Below, one piece after another: positions 5,086 through 12,321 of a DNA stretch of 64,000 bases. The stretch's first letter is position 1. Each line of letters opens with the position of its first letter. The stretch lies in contig NZ_CP035311.1 in assembly GCF_004114795.1 (NCBI RefSeq), positions 2,232,001 to 2,296,000 of the forward strand, written 5' to 3'. This stretch comes from Janthinobacterium sp. 17J80-10. GTDB lineage: Bacteria; Pseudomonadota; Gammaproteobacteria; Burkholderiales; Burkholderiaceae_D. Made by a program: the position numbers and the translations under genes. Under the pieces are notes generated by a model that did not search any database, was not told the origin of the DNA, and saw nothing but the letters and a program-made list of their open reading frames with translations.

Positions 5086-6144
5086 TCAGTAATTTTGCCT
5101 GGATGTGCGCTCGTACCAGGGTTGGGAAGCGTTCACGACCCGCACCACCAGGAGCATCACCGGCACTTCGATCAATACCCCGACGACGGTCGCCAGTGCT
5201 GCGCCGGAGTTGAAGCCGAACAGACTGATGGCCGCGGCCACGGCCAGCTCGAAGAAATTGGACGCGCCGATCAGCGCCGAGGGACAGGCGATATTGTGTT
5301 TTTCGCCGACCGCGCGATTGAGCCAGTAGGCCAGCGCCGAGTTAAAGAATACCTGGATCAGGATGGGAACTGCCAGCAGTGCGATGACTACCGGTTGTGC
5401 CAGGATGGCTTCACCCTGAAAAGCAAACAGCAGCACAAGCGTGGCGAGCAGCGCGGCGATCGACCATGGTCCAATCTTTGCCATTGCCGCTTCAAAAGCC
5501 GCCGGGCCTCGCGCCAGCAGTGCCTTGCGCCAGAGTTGGGCCAGGATCACCGGGATCACGATGTACAGCACGACCGACGTGACAAGCGTGGCCCAGGGCA
5601 CGGTAATCGAGGAGATGCCCAGCAAAAATGCCACCAGGGGGGCGAAGGCAACGATCATGATGCCGTCGTTCAAAGCGACCTGCGACAGCGTAAACAACGG
5701 GTCGCCGCCTGTCAGCCGGCTCCACACAAAGACCATCGCCGTGCATGGCGCTGCCGCCAGCAGGATCAGGCCGGCTATGTAGCTGTCGATCTGCTCGGCT
5801 GGCAGCATCGGCGCGAACAGGTGGCGGATGAATAGCCAGCCGAGCAAGGCCATCGAGAAAGGCTTGACCAGCCAGTTGACGAACAGGGTCACGCCAATGC
5901 CGCGCATATGCTGGCGGACTTCGTGCAAGGCGCTGAAATCCACTTTCACCAGCATCGGAATGATCATTACCCAGATCAGCAGCCCCACCGGCAAATTGAC
6001 CCTGGCGACTTCCATGCGGCCGACAGCCTGAAAAACACCGGGAAACACCTGCCCGAGTGCGATGCCGGCGACGATGCAGAGAAATACCCACACGGTAAGG
6101 TAACGCTCGAACACGCTCATCGGCGCGCCGGCTGCTTTTTTCAT
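5086..6144 (-). CDS. acr3: Arsenite efflux permease of the ACR3 family
   Basis: This membrane protein of about 350 residues has roughly ten hydrophobic segments and the ACR3 hallmarks. These are the LPVGLLIWVMIIPMLVKVDF segment and the LAAAPCTAMVFVWS stretch, whose cysteine is essential in characterised ACR3 proteins. It exports arsenite (and sometimes antimonite) across the inner membrane. It is the last gene of the leftward ars operon, 80 bases after the double ArsC. The frame is open to 6204; the start MKKAAG at 6144 is preferred from family length, with only a weak Shine-Dalgarno site. Pairing with ArsA/ArsD is less usual than ArsB-ArsA but is known. Confidence 0.93.
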   Translation of the reverse strand: MKKAAGAPMSVFERYLTVWVFLCIVAGIALGQVFPGVFQAVGRMEVARVNLPVGLLIWVMIIPMLVKVDFSALHEVRQHMRGIGVTLFVNWLVKPFSMALLGWLFIRHLFAPMLPAEQIDSYIAGLILLAAAPCTAMVFVWSRLTGGDPLFTLSQVALNDGIMIVAFAPLVAFLLGISSITVPWATLVTSVVLYIVIPVILAQLWRKALLARGPAAFEAAMAKIGPWSIAALLATLVLLFAFQGEAILAQPVVIALLAVPILIQVFFNSALAYWLNRAVGEKHNIACPSALIGASNFFELAVAAAISLFGFNSGAALATVVGVLIEVPVMLLVVRVVNASQPWYERTSRQNY

Positions 6145-6224
6145 CGTAACTTCACATTGAGCTGACAAAACTATTTCCTTCCAATCGATTATCCAGAGTT
6201 GCACCTGCGGGTGGTCGCAACGAC

Positions 6225-7208
6225 TTACACTTTCATTGCGCCGATGGCCTTGATTTCCTGATTGATGCTTGTATTTTCCATCGCATGCAGGGGCAACTTC
6301 ACGAATGCATCGATGCGCTTGATGATCTGGGCAAAGACCTTGGCGAACAGCGCCTGCTTTTCTTCGTCACTGCCTTCGAGCGCAGCCGGGTCTTCATAGC
6401 CCCAATGGGCCGTGGCAGGATGTCCCGGCCAATAAGGGCATTCCTCGCCGGCAGCGTTGTCGCAGACCGTGATGATGAAATCCATCTGCGGAGCAGTTGG
6501 CAGGGAAAATTCGTCCCAGCTCTTGCTGCGCATGTTCTGGGTCGGGTAATAATGATCGAACGCCTTGATTTGTGCGATGGCAAACGGGTTAACCTTGCCG
6601 CCGGGACGACTGCCCGCGCTGAAGCCACGGAAGCGGCCCTGGCCGAGGATGTCCACCAGCGCTTCCGACATCACGCTGCGCGCTGAATTGCCGGTGCAGA
6701 CAAAGAGCACGTTGTAGACCTTGCCGATTTCCTCGACGTTTCTCTTGATTGCCAGGCGCTCGAGCTTGCTGAGCGGCAGGCTCAGGAAGATATCCAGTCG
6801 GTTCTTGATTTCGCGGCATACCCGCGCAAATGCTGCCCGCTTGCTCGCATCATCGCCCTCGACCGCCGCCGGATCCTGGAATCCCCAATGTGCATTGACG
6901 GGCTGGCCCGGCCAGACCGGGCATGTCTCGCCGGCTGCCTTGTCGCAGACAGTGATGACGAAATCCATTTGCGGCGCGTCGGCTGCGGCGAACTCGCTCC
7001 AGCTCTTGCTGCGCAGGTTTTCGGCGGCGTAGCCAATGCGGCTTATTTCATCGATGGCGTACGGGTGAACTGCGCCAGCAGGATGGCTACCGCCGCTGTA
7101 AGCGCGGAAGCGGCCACGCCCAATGGAATTCAGCAACGCTTCTGCCATGATGCTGCGCGCCGAATTGCCGGTGCAAAGAAACAGGACGTTATAGATTTTT
7201 TCAGACAT
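6225..7208 (-). CDS. Tandem-domain arsenate reductase (two LMW-phosphatase-type ArsC units fused)
   Basis: The protein has about 327 residues and contains two complete arsenate reductase units of the thioredoxin-coupled, tyrosine-phosphatase-like type. Unit 1 carries the CTGNSAR loop (Cys12) and the redox pair in VCDKAAGETC (Cys88, Cys96). Unit 2 repeats both: CTGNSAR (Cys171) and VCDNAAGEEC (Cys249, Cys257). The HWGF/HWGY-DPAA segment also appears twice. A linker of about 25 residues (near 145-165) joins them. The typical family length is 130-165 residues, so this is a true fusion with all catalytic residues kept in both halves. It reduces arsenate to arsenite for export by ACR3. The start MSEKIYN at 7208 leaves a 3-nt overlap with the end of arsA; an alternative ATG is at 7223. 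Confidence 0.92.
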   Translation of the reverse strand: MSEKIYNVLFLCTGNSARSIMAEALLNSIGRGRFRAYSGGSHPAGAVHPYAIDEISRIGYAAENLRSKSWSEFAAADAPQMDFVITVCDKAAGETCPVWPGQPVNAHWGFQDPAAVEGDDASKRAAFARVCREIKNRLDIFLSLPLSKLERLAIKRNVEEIGKVYNVLFVCTGNSARSVMSEALVDILGQGRFRGFSAGSRPGGKVNPFAIAQIKAFDHYYPTQNMRSKSWDEFSLPTAPQMDFIITVCDNAAGEECPYWPGHPATAHWGYEDPAALEGSDEEKQALFAKVFAQIIKRIDAFVKLPLHAMENTSINQEIKAIGAMKV

Positions 7209-7209
7209 C

Positions 7210-8979
7210 TCAGGATCTTTCATGAATGTTGTGGGCCAGTTCCAGCAGCCGCTCGACCCCGACCGGTTCTTCCTGCATCAGCGGCACCAGCGCATAGCGT
7301 TGCGCATGGCGCGTGGCGACCGCATCGATTTCGCGCATCTCGTTATGTGCGCGCAAGCGCAGCAAGTGCGACTGCGGTCGTGCGGCGGCCACACTGTTGT
7401 TGATCACCCACGCCCAGGGCTCGATTCCCGCACGGCGCAAATCGGCTTGCAGATTGGCCGCTTCCAGCACCGGCGTGGTTTCCGCCAGCGTCACCAGCAA
7501 GACTTTGGTCTGCTTCGGGTCTTGCAGTTGCATCATCGGCGTGACGAAATGGATACCCTTGTCGCCCATCTGGCGCACGATCTCGCGGTGATAGGCGCCG
7601 GTCGCATCGAGCAGCAGCAGCGTATGGCCAGTCGGCGCCGTATCCATGACCACGAACTTCTTGCCGGCTTCGCGAATGGCGCGCGAAAACGCCTGGAATA
7701 CCGCAATTTCCTCGGTGCAGGGCGAGCGCAGGTCTTCTTCCAGCAAGGCGCGTCCGGCATCGTCGAGCTTCGCGCCTTTGGTCTGCAGCACTTGCTGCCG
7801 ATAGCGCGCAGTTTCGGCATGCGGGTCGATGCGGCTCACGCTCAGGTGTTCCAGCGAACCGGTGAGGGTTTCGGCCAGATGCGCTGCCGGATCGGATGTG
7901 GTCAGGTGGACGGGCAAGCCACGCCGGGCAAGTTCTACTGCGATGGCCGCAGCCAGGGTGGTTTTGCCGACGCCGCCTTTGCCCATGACCATGACAAGTC
8001 CATGGCCGTCCGCCGCAATGCCATCGACCAGGTTCGACAGATCAGGCGCATCGGGTGCCACGGCTTGTTCCAGGCTTGCAGCAGACGGGATGGCCTCAGG
8101 TGAAAGCAGGTGGCGCAAGGCATCGACACCGACCAGGTTAAACGGCTTGAGATCCACCCGGTCGCCCGGCAGGTCTTCAAGAACGACAGGCATGGCTGCG
8201 ATAGCTGCCTGTTCGCGGCGGACAATTGCCGCGGCAAGCGGATCCTGTGCCACTTCGCTTGCGGGAAGGACGCCATTGATGACCAGGTACTGCTCCGAAA
8301 GTCCGATGGCAGCCAGCTCTTCATGCGTGCGGGCGGCTTCGCGCAGGGTGGATTGCTGTGCGCGTGCCACCAGCACCAGTCGCGTGCGGCGCGGATCGGC
8401 GAGGGCATCGACTGCCGCCTTGTATTGCGCGCGCTGCTTTTCAAGGCCGGCGAGAGGGCCGAGACACGAGGCATCGCCTTTGCCGGCCTCCAGAAAGCCG
8501 CTCCAGGCGCCAGGCAGTTGCAGCAGGCGAATAGTATGCCCGGTCGGCGCCGTATCGAAGATGATATGGTCGTAGCCGACAGTGAGCGCGCCGTCCGTCA
8601 GCAGCGCCGTGAACTCGTCGAAGGCGGCAATTTCAGTGGTGCATGCGCCCGACAGGGATTCCTCGATGCCCTTGACGACATCGTCGGGCAATACCCCGCG
8701 CACCGGATTGACGAGACGGTCCCGGTAGGCTTGCGCTGCCGCTTGCGGATCGATTTCCAGCGCGTGCAGTCCGGGCACGGCTGCAATGGCGGTGATGCGG
8801 TTGCCGATTTCCACGCCGAACACCTGGCCAACGTTGGAGGCCGGGTCGGTGCTGACCAGCAGCGTGCGCTTGCCGGTTTCGGCCAGGTGGATGGCGGTGG
8901 CGCAGGCCAGCGACGTTTTGCCGACGCCACCCTTACCGGTAAAAAACATGAACCGCGGCGGCGAAGTCAGGAAATGCAT
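7210..8979 (-). CDS. arsA: Arsenite-translocating ATPase ArsA (two-domain)
   Basis: The protein has 589 residues and two ATPase halves, each with a GKGGVGKT P-loop (15-22 and 333-340) and a DTAPTGHT switch motif (about 142-149 and 446-453). The three metalloid-binding cysteines of the Escherichia coli enzyme are all present, at 113 (SGACTTEIAAFDEF), 172 (GDASCLG) and 421 (RSPCTEEIAVF). ArsA hydrolyses ATP in the cytosol to drive arsenite through the membrane carrier and receives arsenite from ArsD. The frame continues upstream to 9297, but that extension overlaps arsD in another frame; ATG 8979 has GGAG five bases before it and gives the exact family N-terminus. The stop overlaps the start of the downstream arsC fusion, suggesting translational coupling. 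Confidence 0.96.
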   Translation of the reverse strand: MHFLTSPPRFMFFTGKGGVGKTSLACATAIHLAETGKRTLLVSTDPASNVGQVFGVEIGNRITAIAAVPGLHALEIDPQAAAQAYRDRLVNPVRGVLPDDVVKGIEESLSGACTTEIAAFDEFTALLTDGALTVGYDHIIFDTAPTGHTIRLLQLPGAWSGFLEAGKGDASCLGPLAGLEKQRAQYKAAVDALADPRRTRLVLVARAQQSTLREAARTHEELAAIGLSEQYLVINGVLPASEVAQDPLAAAIVRREQAAIAAMPVVLEDLPGDRVDLKPFNLVGVDALRHLLSPEAIPSAASLEQAVAPDAPDLSNLVDGIAADGHGLVMVMGKGGVGKTTLAAAIAVELARRGLPVHLTTSDPAAHLAETLTGSLEHLSVSRIDPHAETARYRQQVLQTKGAKLDDAGRALLEEDLRSPCTEEIAVFQAFSRAIREAGKKFVVMDTAPTGHTLLLLDATGAYHREIVRQMGDKGIHFVTPMMQLQDPKQTKVLLVTLAETTPVLEAANLQADLRRAGIEPWAWVINNSVAAARPQSHLLRLRAHNEMREIDAVATRHAQRYALVPLMQEEPVGVERLLELAHNIHERS

Positions 8980-9035
8980 GGGTTCTCCAGAATTTTTTGT
9001 GGAATCGACCGGGATCGGTGGCTTGCCCGTGGCCG

Positions 9036-9398
9036 TCAGCAGCAGTTCGATCCGCTGCAGCTGGCACCCGTTGGCGCTGCCGCGACAGGCAGTGCGCTGA
9101 TGCCGGCCCAGCGCGCCAGTTCGGCGCGGCGCGGATAACGGCCGGCCAGCGCCAGCTGGCCGTCGACCAGGATCAGCGGCAGCGCATCCTTGCCGGAGCG
9201 CTCCAGGAAAGCTTTGACGGTCGGGTGTTCCGCAAAGGCCATCGGCTGTTGTGCCAGGTTGAAGCGCTCGATCTGGGCGCCGTGCTGCTTGGCCCACTCG
9301 GCATCGGCAGAAAAATCCACCAGCGCCTGTTCAACCTCTACACCGCACACGCCGGTGCTGCAGCACATGGCGGGGTCATAAATCTGAATCTTGGTCAT
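9036..9398 (-). CDS. arsD: Arsenite metallochaperone ArsD
   Basis: The protein has 120 residues, the family's usual length. The chaperone cysteines Cys12-Cys13 and Cys18 lie in the expected DPAMCCSTGVCG context. A thioredoxin-like fold is suggested by LPLILVDGQLALAGRYP. The C-terminus has extra cysteines (Cys114, 119 and 120 in SCSGSNCC), as in ArsD proteins with the additional vicinal pair. ArsD binds arsenite and hands it to ArsA. It lies between arsC and arsA in the operon, 12 bases after arsC and about 56 bases before arsA. Confidence 0.95.
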   Translation of the reverse strand: MTKIQIYDPAMCCSTGVCGVEVEQALVDFSADAEWAKQHGAQIERFNLAQQPMAFAEHPTVKAFLERSGKDALPLILVDGQLALAGRYPRRAELARWAGISALPVAAAPTGASCSGSNCC

Positions 9399-9410
9399 GC
9401 CAGCTACGCC

Positions 9411-9890
9411 TTATTGATGGGTCTCTGCAATGTTGTCCATGGCTGCCTTGAGGCCGGCCTTGTCATTTTCCAGCGTTTCCAGCGGCAGTGCCAGGAAGGC
9501 TTCGATGCGCGCGCGCAGGATGCGGTACGCCTGCATGAATGCCGCATCGATTTCATCATCCGTGCCGGTGGCGTGCGCGGGATCTTCAACACCCCAGTGC
9601 GTACGCAACACGGGGCCGAGGTAAGCGGGGCAGGTTTCGCCTGCGGCGCTGGCGCACACGGTGATGACAATGTCCGGCGTGGCCGGCAAGTTGTCCCAGG
9701 ACTTGCTGAAATAGCCCTCAGTAGCAATGCCTTCTCGCGCCAGCAAGGCCAGCGAGCGGGGATGCACATAGCCGGCTGGCTTGCTGCCGGCACTCATGGC
9801 GTGCCATCCCGCCGGCGCCAGGTGGTTGAAGGTGGCTTCGCCGAGGATGGATCGGCAGGAATTGCCGGTGCAGAGAAACAGGACATTCAT
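9411..9890 (-). CDS. arsC: Arsenate reductase ArsC (thioredoxin-coupled type)
   Basis: This single-unit arsenate reductase has 159 residues. The phosphatase-type loop CTGNSCR begins at Cys7, and the redox cysteines Cys79 and Cys87 are in VCASAAGETC. It reduces arsenate to arsenite by a Cys7-Cys79-Cys87 disulfide cascade, regenerated by thioredoxin in relatives. It is the second gene of the operon, 81 bases after arsR. It is clearly diverged from both halves of the double ArsC downstream (for example NSCRS against NSARS, and PAYLG against PVWPG/PYWPG). The operon therefore encodes three ArsC active sites. Confidence 0.94.
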   Translation of the reverse strand: MNVLFLCTGNSCRSILGEATFNHLAPAGWHAMSAGSKPAGYVHPRSLALLAREGIATEGYFSKSWDNLPATPDIVITVCASAAGETCPAYLGPVLRTHWGVEDPAHATGTDDEIDAAFMQAYRILRARIEAFLALPLETLENDKAGLKAAMDNIAETHQ

Positions 9891-9971: not shown

Positions 9972-10310
9972 TCACCTGACAGCCGGTTCGGTGGCGCAAT
10001 CGGTCTTGCAGACAGGAGAGCATGGATTGCCGCCGCAACAATTGGCCGTCAAAAATGCCATCAAGCCATTCATCGTGTCGAAATTGGCGCAGTAATAGAC
10101 GAAACGCCCCTCCTGGCGGGACGTGACCAGGCCGGCGTGGGAAAGCTCCTTGAGGTGAAAGGACAGGGAGGAGGGCGGCACGCCAATCTGATCGCTGATC
10201 TTGCTGGCTGCCAAACCTTGGGGGCCCGTCTGCACCAGCAGGCGAAACACGGCAAGACGCGATTCCTGTGCAAGTGCCGCCAGGGCAGTGATAATGTTTT
10301 TGGTTTCCAT
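9972..10310 (-). CDS. arsR: ArsR/SmtB-family arsenic-responsive repressor
   Basis: The protein has about 112 residues from METKNIITAL; the frame is open to 10418, but the longer versions read through the operator. The winged-helix core runs from about 5 to 80, with the recognition segment IGVPPSSLSFHLKELSHAGLV. The usual ELCVCDL cysteine site of plasmid ArsR is absent. Instead there is a C-terminal cluster, Cys91-Cys92-Cys97-Cys101-Cys105 (NCCGGNPCSPVC), resembling the Acidithiobacillus-type ArsR that binds arsenite near the C-terminus. It should repress from the inverted repeat at 10336-10357 and release on arsenite binding. It is the first gene of the leftward operon. Confidence 0.93.
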   Translation of the reverse strand: METKNIITALAALAQESRLAVFRLLVQTGPQGLAASKISDQIGVPPSSLSFHLKELSHAGLVTSRQEGRFVYYCANFDTMNGLMAFLTANCCGGNPCSPVCKTDCATEPAVR

Positions 10311-10311
10311 C

Positions 10312-10339
10312 TTGAATTCCCGCATTTCGATTCTATAAT
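10312..10339 (+). promoter_or_regulatory. Rightward promoter of the ATP-grasp-like gene in the ars divergon
   Basis: TTGAAT (10312-10317), 16-bp spacer, and a perfect TATAAT (10334-10339). The predicted start near 10346 lies inside the ArsR-like inverted repeat, so repressor binding should block it. Confidence 0.6.
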
Positions 10340-10357
10340 TCGATAATAGTCGAATTA
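10336..10357. promoter_or_regulatory. ArsR-type operator between arsR and the divergent gene
   Basis: Perfect 8-bp inverted repeat TAATTCGA-N6-TCGAATTA. It overlaps the rightward -10 element and also a possible leftward -10 (TATTAT on the minus strand, 10343-10348, with CTGGCA as -35 at 10367-10372, 18-bp spacing). One repressor dimer could therefore control both directions. The half-sites are read from sequence; binding is inferred from position and the adjacent arsR. Confidence 0.65.
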
Positions 10358-10411
10358 TCGGATTAATGCCAGTGGCACGCGATGATCCACAACGAAAAGG
10401 AAGACCCTTCG

Positions 10412-11758
10412 ATGACAACAGACAGCAAGGAAGCGGTACTCACGGCCACTTCGACGTGCAATACGGCAAGTTGCGGCAGCACAGTGGCAGAAGCATTGAA
10501 TCAAGGATGTTTTTGCGTCAGCCTCGACAGTGGGGTGCTGCGCGCCGCACTTCAGTCAACGCTGAAGCCGCCATCCACGCCGCAGGAACCTGACCTGTTT
10601 GCCTTGATCGAGCAGCGCTGCCCCTATGTGTTTTCCGCTAACCCGGTGTTCATTTCACGATCGCATGTCCGCCAGATGGAGCAACTGGTGCAGGCAATCG
10701 AATCGGTCGCGGATCTGCCCGCCTACCGGACCCAGGTGCTTGCGGGCGCCCCCGAAATTGCCCGCCAGGCGCCCAACGCTGCTAAAGGAGTCTTTTACGG
10801 CTATGACTTCCATCTGCATGAAGAAAGTATCGCCCTCATTGAAGTCAATACCAATGCCGGCGGCGCGATGCTCAATGCTGCGCTGGCGCGGGCGCAGCGC
10901 GCCTGCTGCGATGCAGTGGAAAACATGCTGCCGGCGCTCGATGCGGCGCAACTGGAAAGTCGTATCGTCGAGATGTTCCGGAACGAATGGCGCCTCGGCG
11001 GGCAGTCCCGGCCATTGCAAACCATTGCGATCGTCGATGAACAGCCGTCAGAACAATACCTGTTTCCAGAATTCCTGATGTTTCAGCAGCTTTTTCGCAG
11101 CCATGGCCTGGAGGCCCTGATTGCCGATCCGGGGCAACTGGTATTTCGCGACGGCGCGCTTTGGCATGGCGCAACACGGGTAGACCTGGTGTACAACCGC
11201 TTGACGGATTTCATGCTGGAAGCGCCGTCGAGCGCGGCCATCAGCGCGGCTTACGCTGCCAATGCGGTGGTGCTGACGCCGCATCCGCAAGCCCACGCGC
11301 TGTTTGCGAACAAGCGCAACCTTGCGTTGCTGACTGACCCGGTGCGACTGGACGCCCTTGGCGTTGCCAGACCGGTGCAGGAAATCCTGCTCTCCGGGAT
11401 CCCGCGCACGGAAATCGTCGACCCGGCGCAGGGCGAACGCTTATGGGCCGAGCGCCGCAAGTTGTTCTTCAAGCCTGCCGCAGGCTACGGCAGCCGCGCG
11501 GCGTATCGCGGCGACAAGCTCACGCGGCGGGTATGGGAGGAAATCCTGGCAGGCGACTACATCGCGCAGGCAATCGTCGCGCCTGCCGAGCGCTCCACCG
11601 GGCCGGATGCGGCGGCACAGCGGCTCAAGTTCGATATCCGCGCCTATGCCTATGATGGCGCCATCCAGTGGCTGGCGGCTCGGCTCTACCAGGGGCAGAC
11701 GACAAATTTTCGCACCCCCGGCGGCGGTTTTGCACCGGTATATTGCCTTGACCTGTAG
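10412..11758 (+). CDS. Uncharacterised ATP-grasp-like protein with Cys-rich N-terminus, ars-linked
   Basis: The protein has 448 residues from ATG 10412, which has AAGGAAG eight bases upstream; an in-frame ATG at 10382 lacks such a site. The C-terminal third resembles an ATP-grasp ligase nucleotide site: FFKPAAGYGSRAAYRG (a lysine plus Gly-rich loop), then YIAQAIV and LKFDIRAYAYDG. The middle has ALIEVNTNAGGAML and LVYNRLTDFML. The first 40 residues hold four cysteines (16, 21, 33, 35) in CNTASCG and CFC patterns, which look suited to soft-metal or arsenite binding. I do not recognise a named family. It diverges from arsR and shares its operator region, so it is probably arsenite-induced. A peptide- or thiol-ligase role is a guess only. 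Confidence 0.75.
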   Translation: MTTDSKEAVLTATSTCNTASCGSTVAEALNQGCFCVSLDSGVLRAALQSTLKPPSTPQEPDLFALIEQRCPYVFSANPVFISRSHVRQMEQLVQAIESVADLPAYRTQVLAGAPEIARQAPNAAKGVFYGYDFHLHEESIALIEVNTNAGGAMLNAALARAQRACCDAVENMLPALDAAQLESRIVEMFRNEWRLGGQSRPLQTIAIVDEQPSEQYLFPEFLMFQQLFRSHGLEALIADPGQLVFRDGALWHGATRVDLVYNRLTDFMLEAPSSAAISAAYAANAVVLTPHPQAHALFANKRNLALLTDPVRLDALGVARPVQEILLSGIPRTEIVDPAQGERLWAERRKLFFKPAAGYGSRAAYRGDKLTRRVWEEILAGDYIAQAIVAPAERSTGPDAAAQRLKFDIRAYAYDGAIQWLAARLYQGQTTNFRTPGGGFAPVYCLDL

Positions 11759-11775: not shown

Positions 11776-12321
11776 CTAGAATTCGCCACCCGGTGTGCGT
11801 GGCTTTTCGAAACCATCGGCGATCCAGGCTGCCGCACTGGTCGGTGTCAGCCTGAATTCTGCCGCGACGCGCACCTGCGCGAGCTGTTCGGCCGCTTCAT
11901 TGCAGGCGCTCAGGAGGGCGTAAGGGTTGTCCTCGTCAGGTACGATATCCAGGGTCACCTTGGTGGTTCGGGCGTCGGCAGTGATGTAGACGCACTTGTG
12001 CAGCATGGCATGACGCTGCTGCTCGTGCCTGCGGATGACTTCCGAAGCGGTCTTGACCAGGGTGGAAAATGCCGGCGCATCCAGGGGCTTGGGATTCTTC
12101 TTGTCGCGGCCCATGGTCCAGGGGCCGACCAGGGCTGGTTCGGATTCGCCATCGCGCGTCATGGCGACTGCCCAGCCGTCGTCGTCCTCGTTCTTGATGA
12201 CGCGGGCCGTCCAGCCATCGTCGCACCAGAGGCGCGCTTCATGGATTTTTGGTTCGACTTCGACCAGGGCGACATCGTCTTGCAAATCCAAATCAATATC
12301 AAACAGAGGCATGTTTTCCAT
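11776..12321 (-). CDS. Hypothetical protein, conserved-looking, acidic N-terminus
   Basis: The protein has 181 residues of unknown function, with no signal peptide or membrane segment. The N-terminal part is acidic (LFDIDLDLQDDVALVEVEPK) and is followed by a compact segment with tryptophans and a WTMGRDKKNPKPLD stretch, then a helical region (FSTLVKTASEVIRRHEQQRHAMLHKCVYI). A second in-frame ATG at 12312 may be the real start. It converges with the ATP-grasp-like gene (17-base gap) and diverges from the SOS-boxed small gene. The LexA-type box lies about 60 bases upstream of its start, so it could share SOS control. Low-complexity composition is absent and codon use matches its neighbours, supporting a real gene. 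Confidence 0.65.
   Translation of the reverse strand: MENMPLFDIDLDLQDDVALVEVEPKIHEARLWCDDGWTARVIKNEDDDGWAVAMTRDGESEPALVGPWTMGRDKKNPKPLDAPAFSTLVKTASEVIRRHEQQRHAMLHKCVYITADARTTKVTLDIVPDEDNPYALLSACNEAAEQLAQVRVAAEFRLTPTSAAAWIADGFEKPRTPGGEF

Follow-up and report, generated by a model that had tools for sequence, protein, structure and literature searches.

A circularly permuted ATP-grasp ligase-like gene apparently switched from the arsR operator in Janthinobacterium sp. 17J80-10, with homologues in copper, ars, mer, and molybdenum-cofactor gene clusters

What is made by the gene that stands back to back with an arsenic-resistance operon in Janthinobacterium sp. 17J80-10, is it controlled together with that operon, and does its role concern arsenic at all? 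In the window, i.e., the whole stretch of 64,000 nucleotides that was analysed, the arsR gene lies on the minus strand (9972–10310) and matches the metalloregulator ArsR/SmtB model NF033788 above cut-off. The rest of the ars operon occupies 5086–9890 of the same strand and was assigned by NCBIfam matches as acr3, double arsC, arsA, arsD, and arsC, of which acr3, arsA, and arsD score above cut-off and the arsC genes below it. Within this operon, a 332-aa open reading frame (6225–7223) joins two LMW-phosphatase-type ArsC domains in tandem. The gene under study, here called gene X, is a lone gene divergent from the operon, with a circularly permuted ATP-grasp ligase-like protein as its product; its open reading frame (10382–11758, plus strand) gives 458 residues from the ATG at 10382. 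The ATG at 10412 is the likelier start, with a predicted product of 448 residues, because a run that reads as Shine–Dalgarno-like, AAGGAAG (10397–10403, plus strand), stands before it. Convergent with gene X, a 181-aa protein without an NCBIfam match is encoded at 11776–12321. Plasmid records that annotate homologues of gene X label them “hypothetical protein”. Some plasmid homologues (L111, 7013–8620; L117, 6989–8647; L263, 5989–7695) carry a C-terminal extension of about 100–130 residues with an RLADWYVA-like motif, for which there is no Pfam match.

The promoter reading into gene X, TTGAAT-N16-TATAAT (10312–10339, plus strand), has 10 of 12 matches, and two promoter-like sites were found in the region versus 0.3 expected. 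The earlier note placed the -10 element inside an ArsR-type inverted repeat, and this was confirmed. The repeat (10330–10363), a putative operator common to arsR and gene X as judged from position and symmetry, consists of 14-nt arms at 10330–10343 and 10350–10363 that are 86% complementary; the -10 of gene X falls within the left arm, so that the promoter is overlapped by the putative operator. The operator core, ATTCGATAATAGTCGAAT, occurs as a single exact copy in the 64 kb window. The same kind of inverted repeat, diverged in sequence, is also located between arsR and a divergent homologue of gene X in five other genomes (L149, L150, L158, L182, L185), where, read by eye, it is approximately TCTATAATTCsATAATAATCGAAATATAGA. 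Conservation of the repeat, taken alone, could be compatible with service to arsR only. The control of gene X by ArsR is argued because the gene’s own -10 sits in the repeat, and gene X is apparently switched from the DNA site that controls the arsenic-resistance operon.

No family of Pfam (at gathering cut-off) or NCBIfam covers the gene X product, and sequence searches against the PDB returned chance matches only, e.g., nitric oxide synthase with an E-value of 0.12. The sole Pfam model touching the protein is CP_ATPgrasp_2 (PF14403), whose weak match is collinear over residues 234–425 and, with 17.4 bits versus a cut-off of 32, leaves the protein outside the family; the best-scoring relative reaches 26.2 bits, also below the 32-bit cut-off, and a true PF14403 member is encoded elsewhere in the same genome. 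For the eukaryotic-type glutathione synthetase model (PF03917), there was no match to gene X with E up to 10, nor to any protein of its own genome, and the glutathionylspermidine synthetase model (GSP_synth, PF03738) did not match the product either. When HMMs were compared with each other, no usable alignment resulted for CP_ATPgrasp_2, GspS, or a eukaryotic-type glutathione synthetase; the settings are possibly at fault, and no weight is placed on this outcome. In these HMM–HMM comparisons, gshB alone was aligned, partly and in permuted register.

The ATP-grasp fold expected by the earlier note is borne out at the level of predicted structure. The AlphaFold2 model, built from an alignment of 80 sequences, is confident (pLDDT 90.7, pTM 0.90) and has whole-length matches among solved structures: YgiC (Z 27.6), YjfC (26.5), homoglutathione synthetase (26.1), human GSS (25.6), glutathionylspermidine synthetase GspS (25.5), and Cp1B (22.5). 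The matches to RimK and GshB cover the C-terminal half only (Z 8–9), and in Foldseek, the best E-value (3e-14) was obtained for eukaryotic-type glutathione/homoglutathione synthetases. The product belongs to the circularly permuted ATP-grasp fold group, with the E-x-N motif located N-terminal to the KP-G-G loop. The motifs of the permuted C-terminal half, GYDFH (140–144) and LIEVNTNAGG (152–161), constituting the Mg/acyl-phosphate motif (10799–10864, plus strand), are invariant and come before FFKPAAGYG (362–370). In gshB of the same genome, the order is opposite, with GLDVIG...TEVN last; the reversed order in gene X therefore indicates circular permutation. When the earlier note let the protein “end in” a nucleotide site, it was right as to the presence of the loop at 362–370 and missed that the halves are swapped and the metal motif (140–161) comes first.

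The ATP-binding Lys364 and the Gly-rich loop lie in FFKPAAGYGSRAAYRG (362–377; 11465–11512, plus strand), with invariant positions, and the remaining core is formed by K416-D418-R420 and GQTTNFRTPGGGFA (438–451; 11627–11734, plus strand), which likewise have invariant positions and are aligned with gshB. Conservation of the Lys and the Gly-rich loop, on which the earlier reading depended, holds throughout the 80 sequences: in FFKPAAGYGS (residues 362–371), F362, F363, K364, P365, G368, and G370 are invariant. The conserved ATP and Mg ligands are K364, K379, K416, D418, R420, R434, E154, and N156. Since the residues of the ATP/Mg motifs are invariant or nearly so, a distant short clade included, the gene X product is very likely a working ligase.

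The E. coli YgiC and YjfC proteins (PDB 7uka, 7uk8, 7uk6) are described as peptidylpolyamine synthetases, i.e., peptide–spermidine ligases (PMC12568646). They have a permuted fold like that of the gene X product (Z 26.5–27.6 over 343–354 aligned residues), but identity is 10–12%, and gene X stands apart by its Cys motifs, by its gene contexts, and by an additional segment at the N-terminus. The eukaryotic-type glutathione and homoglutathione synthetases (PDB 3kal, 2hgs, 5oes) are alike in fold, permutation, and E-x-N motif, with identity of 11–14%. A third relative by fold, Cp1B (PDB 9cjn; Z 22.5, 15% identity), is a ligase of the fungal E-64 pathway encoded in a biosynthetic cluster without a metal context. 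Cp1B is an amide-forming ATP-grasp enzyme that needs R139, D141, E163, and N165 (PMC12568646). By motif, D141, E163, and N165 correspond to D142, E154, and N156, which are retained in the gene X family, whereas the catalytic Arg, which precedes the conserved Asp by two positions, is not kept: R139-x-D141 of Cp1B is G140-Y-D142 in gene X. Read by motif, the product likewise differs here from the eukaryotic-type glutathione synthetases, G140 standing at the Arg position that was considered among their gamma-glutamylcysteine-binding residues. The replacement of Arg by Gly140 suggests a different acceptor. A substitute glutathione synthetase was considered and rejected: the genome has an ordinary gshB, so that gene X does not serve the usual synthesis of glutathione. 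In the open-access literature on ATP-grasp enzymes in arsenic or copper resistance, on arsR operons, and on permuted ATP-grasp proteins, no description of the gene X family was found. The fold group is known, and the new element is the combination of a permuted ATP-grasp protein with conserved cysteines and recurrent placement in cop, ars, mer, and molybdenum-cofactor clusters.

The cysteines drew attention in the earlier note, which counted four of them near the N-terminus and proposed that As(III) might be carried on them. All four exist; C43 and C45 are conserved, and C26 and C31 do not keep their positions in the alignment. The C43-F-C45 motif (codons at 10508–10516, plus strand) is near-invariant, both residues being found in 116–117 of 118 aligned sequences. 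A second conserved pair, C175-C176 (10904–10909, plus strand), is absent from that note; C175 is present in 117/118 and C176 in 113/118 of the sequences, a conservation that the short clade does not share. With C43, C45, and C175, the protein has the three conserved cysteines expected at the least of a soft-metal (thiolate) binding protein. A conserved metal site at the C26-NTAS-C31 pair (10457–10474, plus strand) was rejected in this form, as the pair varies in position, and gave way to the reading of one extra pair in either tail. Many members have such a pair in the N tail (CNTASC in gene X; L031, L072) or in the C tail (e.g., ACCRNVC; L168, L175, L183), never in both. Outside the molybdenum-cofactor clade, 68 loci were readable, of which 19 have the pair in the N tail, 19 in the C tail, and none in the two together, as if either tail might complete the same site. 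As(III) carriage is therefore weakened as far as the 26/31 pair is concerned, and a thiol site built from C43, C45, C175, and C176 is plausible. Because CxC and CC tend to co-occur across clades, it is suggested that they form one joint site. In the distant clade of proteins of about 360 residues from other proteobacteria (L209–L228), CxC is missing and positions 175/176 hold no conserved Cys, while the ATP-grasp residues are retained. In L206, C175, C176, and part of CxC are gone, and L207 keeps CxC without CC. This co-occurrence and the isolated bridge residues 48 and 172 in the AlphaFold2 model are weak hints on proximity of the cysteines. The tail Cys state changes at least 15 times on the tree. 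The extra tail pair is present in 28/46 metal-linked members versus 1/51 of the molybdenum-cofactor clade; the naive Fisher p of 3e-11 overstates this contrast because it comes down, in essence, to a single split of the tree.

The gene neighbourhoods of homologues answer the question of arsenic. Two of the locus samples share a few genomes (e.g., L031 = L149); gene calls were heuristic and the tree was quick. Within six genes of the same-family loci (n = 46), copper-resistance genes were found at 24, ars genes at 7, and neither at 16, the last number being an upper limit since labels come from BLAST against a limited labelled set; other two-component systems may be among those labelled CopR/CopS, which is a broad label. 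Of the genome-contig loci (n = 80), molybdenum-cofactor genes accompany 46, copper-resistance genes 24, and ars genes 6, and among more distant loci (n = 14), 4 have copper and 2 ars. The homologues near arsR that the earlier note proposed to count are recurrent and include arsR-X-acr3 and arsR-X-arsC-acr3 operons with all genes on one strand (L044 and L048). Of 148 long-form loci, around 13 have an ars link, and these fall on four branches or more; the ars label requires at least seven changes on the tree of 121 sequences, four of which are imposed by branches with good support. No support was obtained for a role peculiar to arsenic: an arsenic-specific gene was rejected because copper neighbours are commoner and a large clade is tied to molybdenum-cofactor operons. 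The commonest metal context is copper resistance, where the homologue in many loci comes immediately after a Cu(I) P-type ATPase, one of which was confirmed by NCBIfam. Neighbours include Cu ATPase, CueR, CopRS, mer, or ars genes. Many copies are plasmid-borne, and the first eight plasmids looked at comprised seven with copper and one with mer genes. Some plasmid copies are exceptions without a metal neighbour. One lies by ATP synthase genes, the homologue of plasmid pSCD (L262) being directly 5' of an F-type ATP synthase operon, with atpD first, which sets it apart from the other contexts; another has RND efflux only.

In Rhodocyclales and relatives (e.g., L042, L050), the 46 molybdenum-cofactor loci have the order dinG-X-mobB-moeA-moaD-moaE. 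Gene X overlaps dinG by 3–7 nt in most of them and mobB by 4 nt in 24/33 readable loci, and the arrangement is a real operon. These loci form one tree group, of which the branch support is weak. The short clade adjoins housekeeping genes; in L220, L222, L224, L225, and L226, the gene is followed by glycosyltransferases, and those after the L222 gene match the NCBIfam “arsenosugar biosynthesis” families TIGR04283 and TIGR04282. The molybdenum-cofactor and the alphaproteobacteria-like short clades speak against a necessary tie between the predicted ligase activity and metal resistance.

The explanation that we prefer, and to which we give about an even chance, is that gene X encodes a soft-metal-associated permuted C–N ligase of the glutathione-synthetase/peptide–polyamine-synthetase fold group, derepressed from ArsR and equipped with a thiolate site, whose product is a thiol, peptide, or polyamine conjugate that buffers metals. 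In this mechanism, arsenite entering the cell would release gene X and the ars operon together from ArsR repression. As can be expected from the fold and the invariant motifs, ATP would phosphorylate the carboxyl of an acceptor, and attack by an amine would yield an amide. The thiolate site of C43, C45, and C175, often with C176 and the tail pair, may bind As(III), Cu(I), Hg(II), or a substrate thiol. The product, e.g., a conjugate of glutathione or gamma-glutamylcysteine, would buffer soft metals or protect cytoplasmic targets. In view of the relatives, a glutathione, gamma-glutamylcysteine, peptide, or polyamine derivative is the most economical idea of this product. It is also conceivable, though distinctly less probable than not, that the metal-gated ligase makes an undescribed low-molecular-weight compound with which cells defend themselves alike against As(III), Cu(I), and Hg(II) and which is tied to molybdenum-cofactor assembly as well.

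The ligase might instead modify a protein, adding an amino acid or polyamine to a metal transporter, a chaperone, or MoaD. RimK and LysX, which modify proteins, do appear lower in the fold list, and the Rhodocyclales operon with mobB, moeA, moaD, and moaE, joined to mobB by 4-nt overlaps, would speak for this reading; however, the best full-length fold matches act on peptides, polyamines, and small acids, and no partner protein common to all contexts was found, which makes protein modification rather unlikely. It has also to be considered whether the cysteines are structural or redox-active and the metal neighbourhoods result from hitch-hiking on mobile metal islands by a gene with an unrelated metabolic role. 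Such a history would fit the many plasmid copies, including the one by ATP synthase genes, the 16/46 same-family loci without a recognised metal gene, and the housekeeping neighbours of the short clade. It is hard to reconcile with the tight, repeated placement behind Cu ATPases, between arsR and acr3 or arsC, and beside mer, with the shared arsR operators, and with the frequency of an ArsR-family gene as immediate neighbour, seen in 6/46 loci versus approximately 0.3% by chance (the genome has five ArsR-family genes); we regard hitch-hiking as unlikely.

A protein that mainly binds soft metals or acts as their chaperone, its ATP-grasp core no longer forming amides, would account for the conserved CxC and CC and the recurrent extra Cys pair in one tail. 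The core Lys, Gly loop, E-x-N, Asp, and Arg are, however, invariant even in members without the cysteines, which is unexpected for a dead enzyme, and this explanation seems quite improbable. Least credible is a role in molybdenum-cofactor chemistry, such as protection or modification of the dithiolene, with the metal-resistance copies guarding this step against poisoning by Cu or As: the dinG-X-mobB-moeA-moaD-moaE order would speak for it, but it is confined to one weakly supported clade, and the metal-linked clades have no molybdenum-cofactor genes nearby.

The gene X family is widespread in proteobacteria and appears to represent an enzyme that metal-resistance clusters of three kinds (ars, cop/cue, and mer) have recruited repeatedly. 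The conserved cysteines and the operator make the proposal of a metal-buffering conjugate directly testable. If it is true, the known ars and cop systems, comprising efflux, reduction, and sequestration proteins, would gain a biosynthetic arm.
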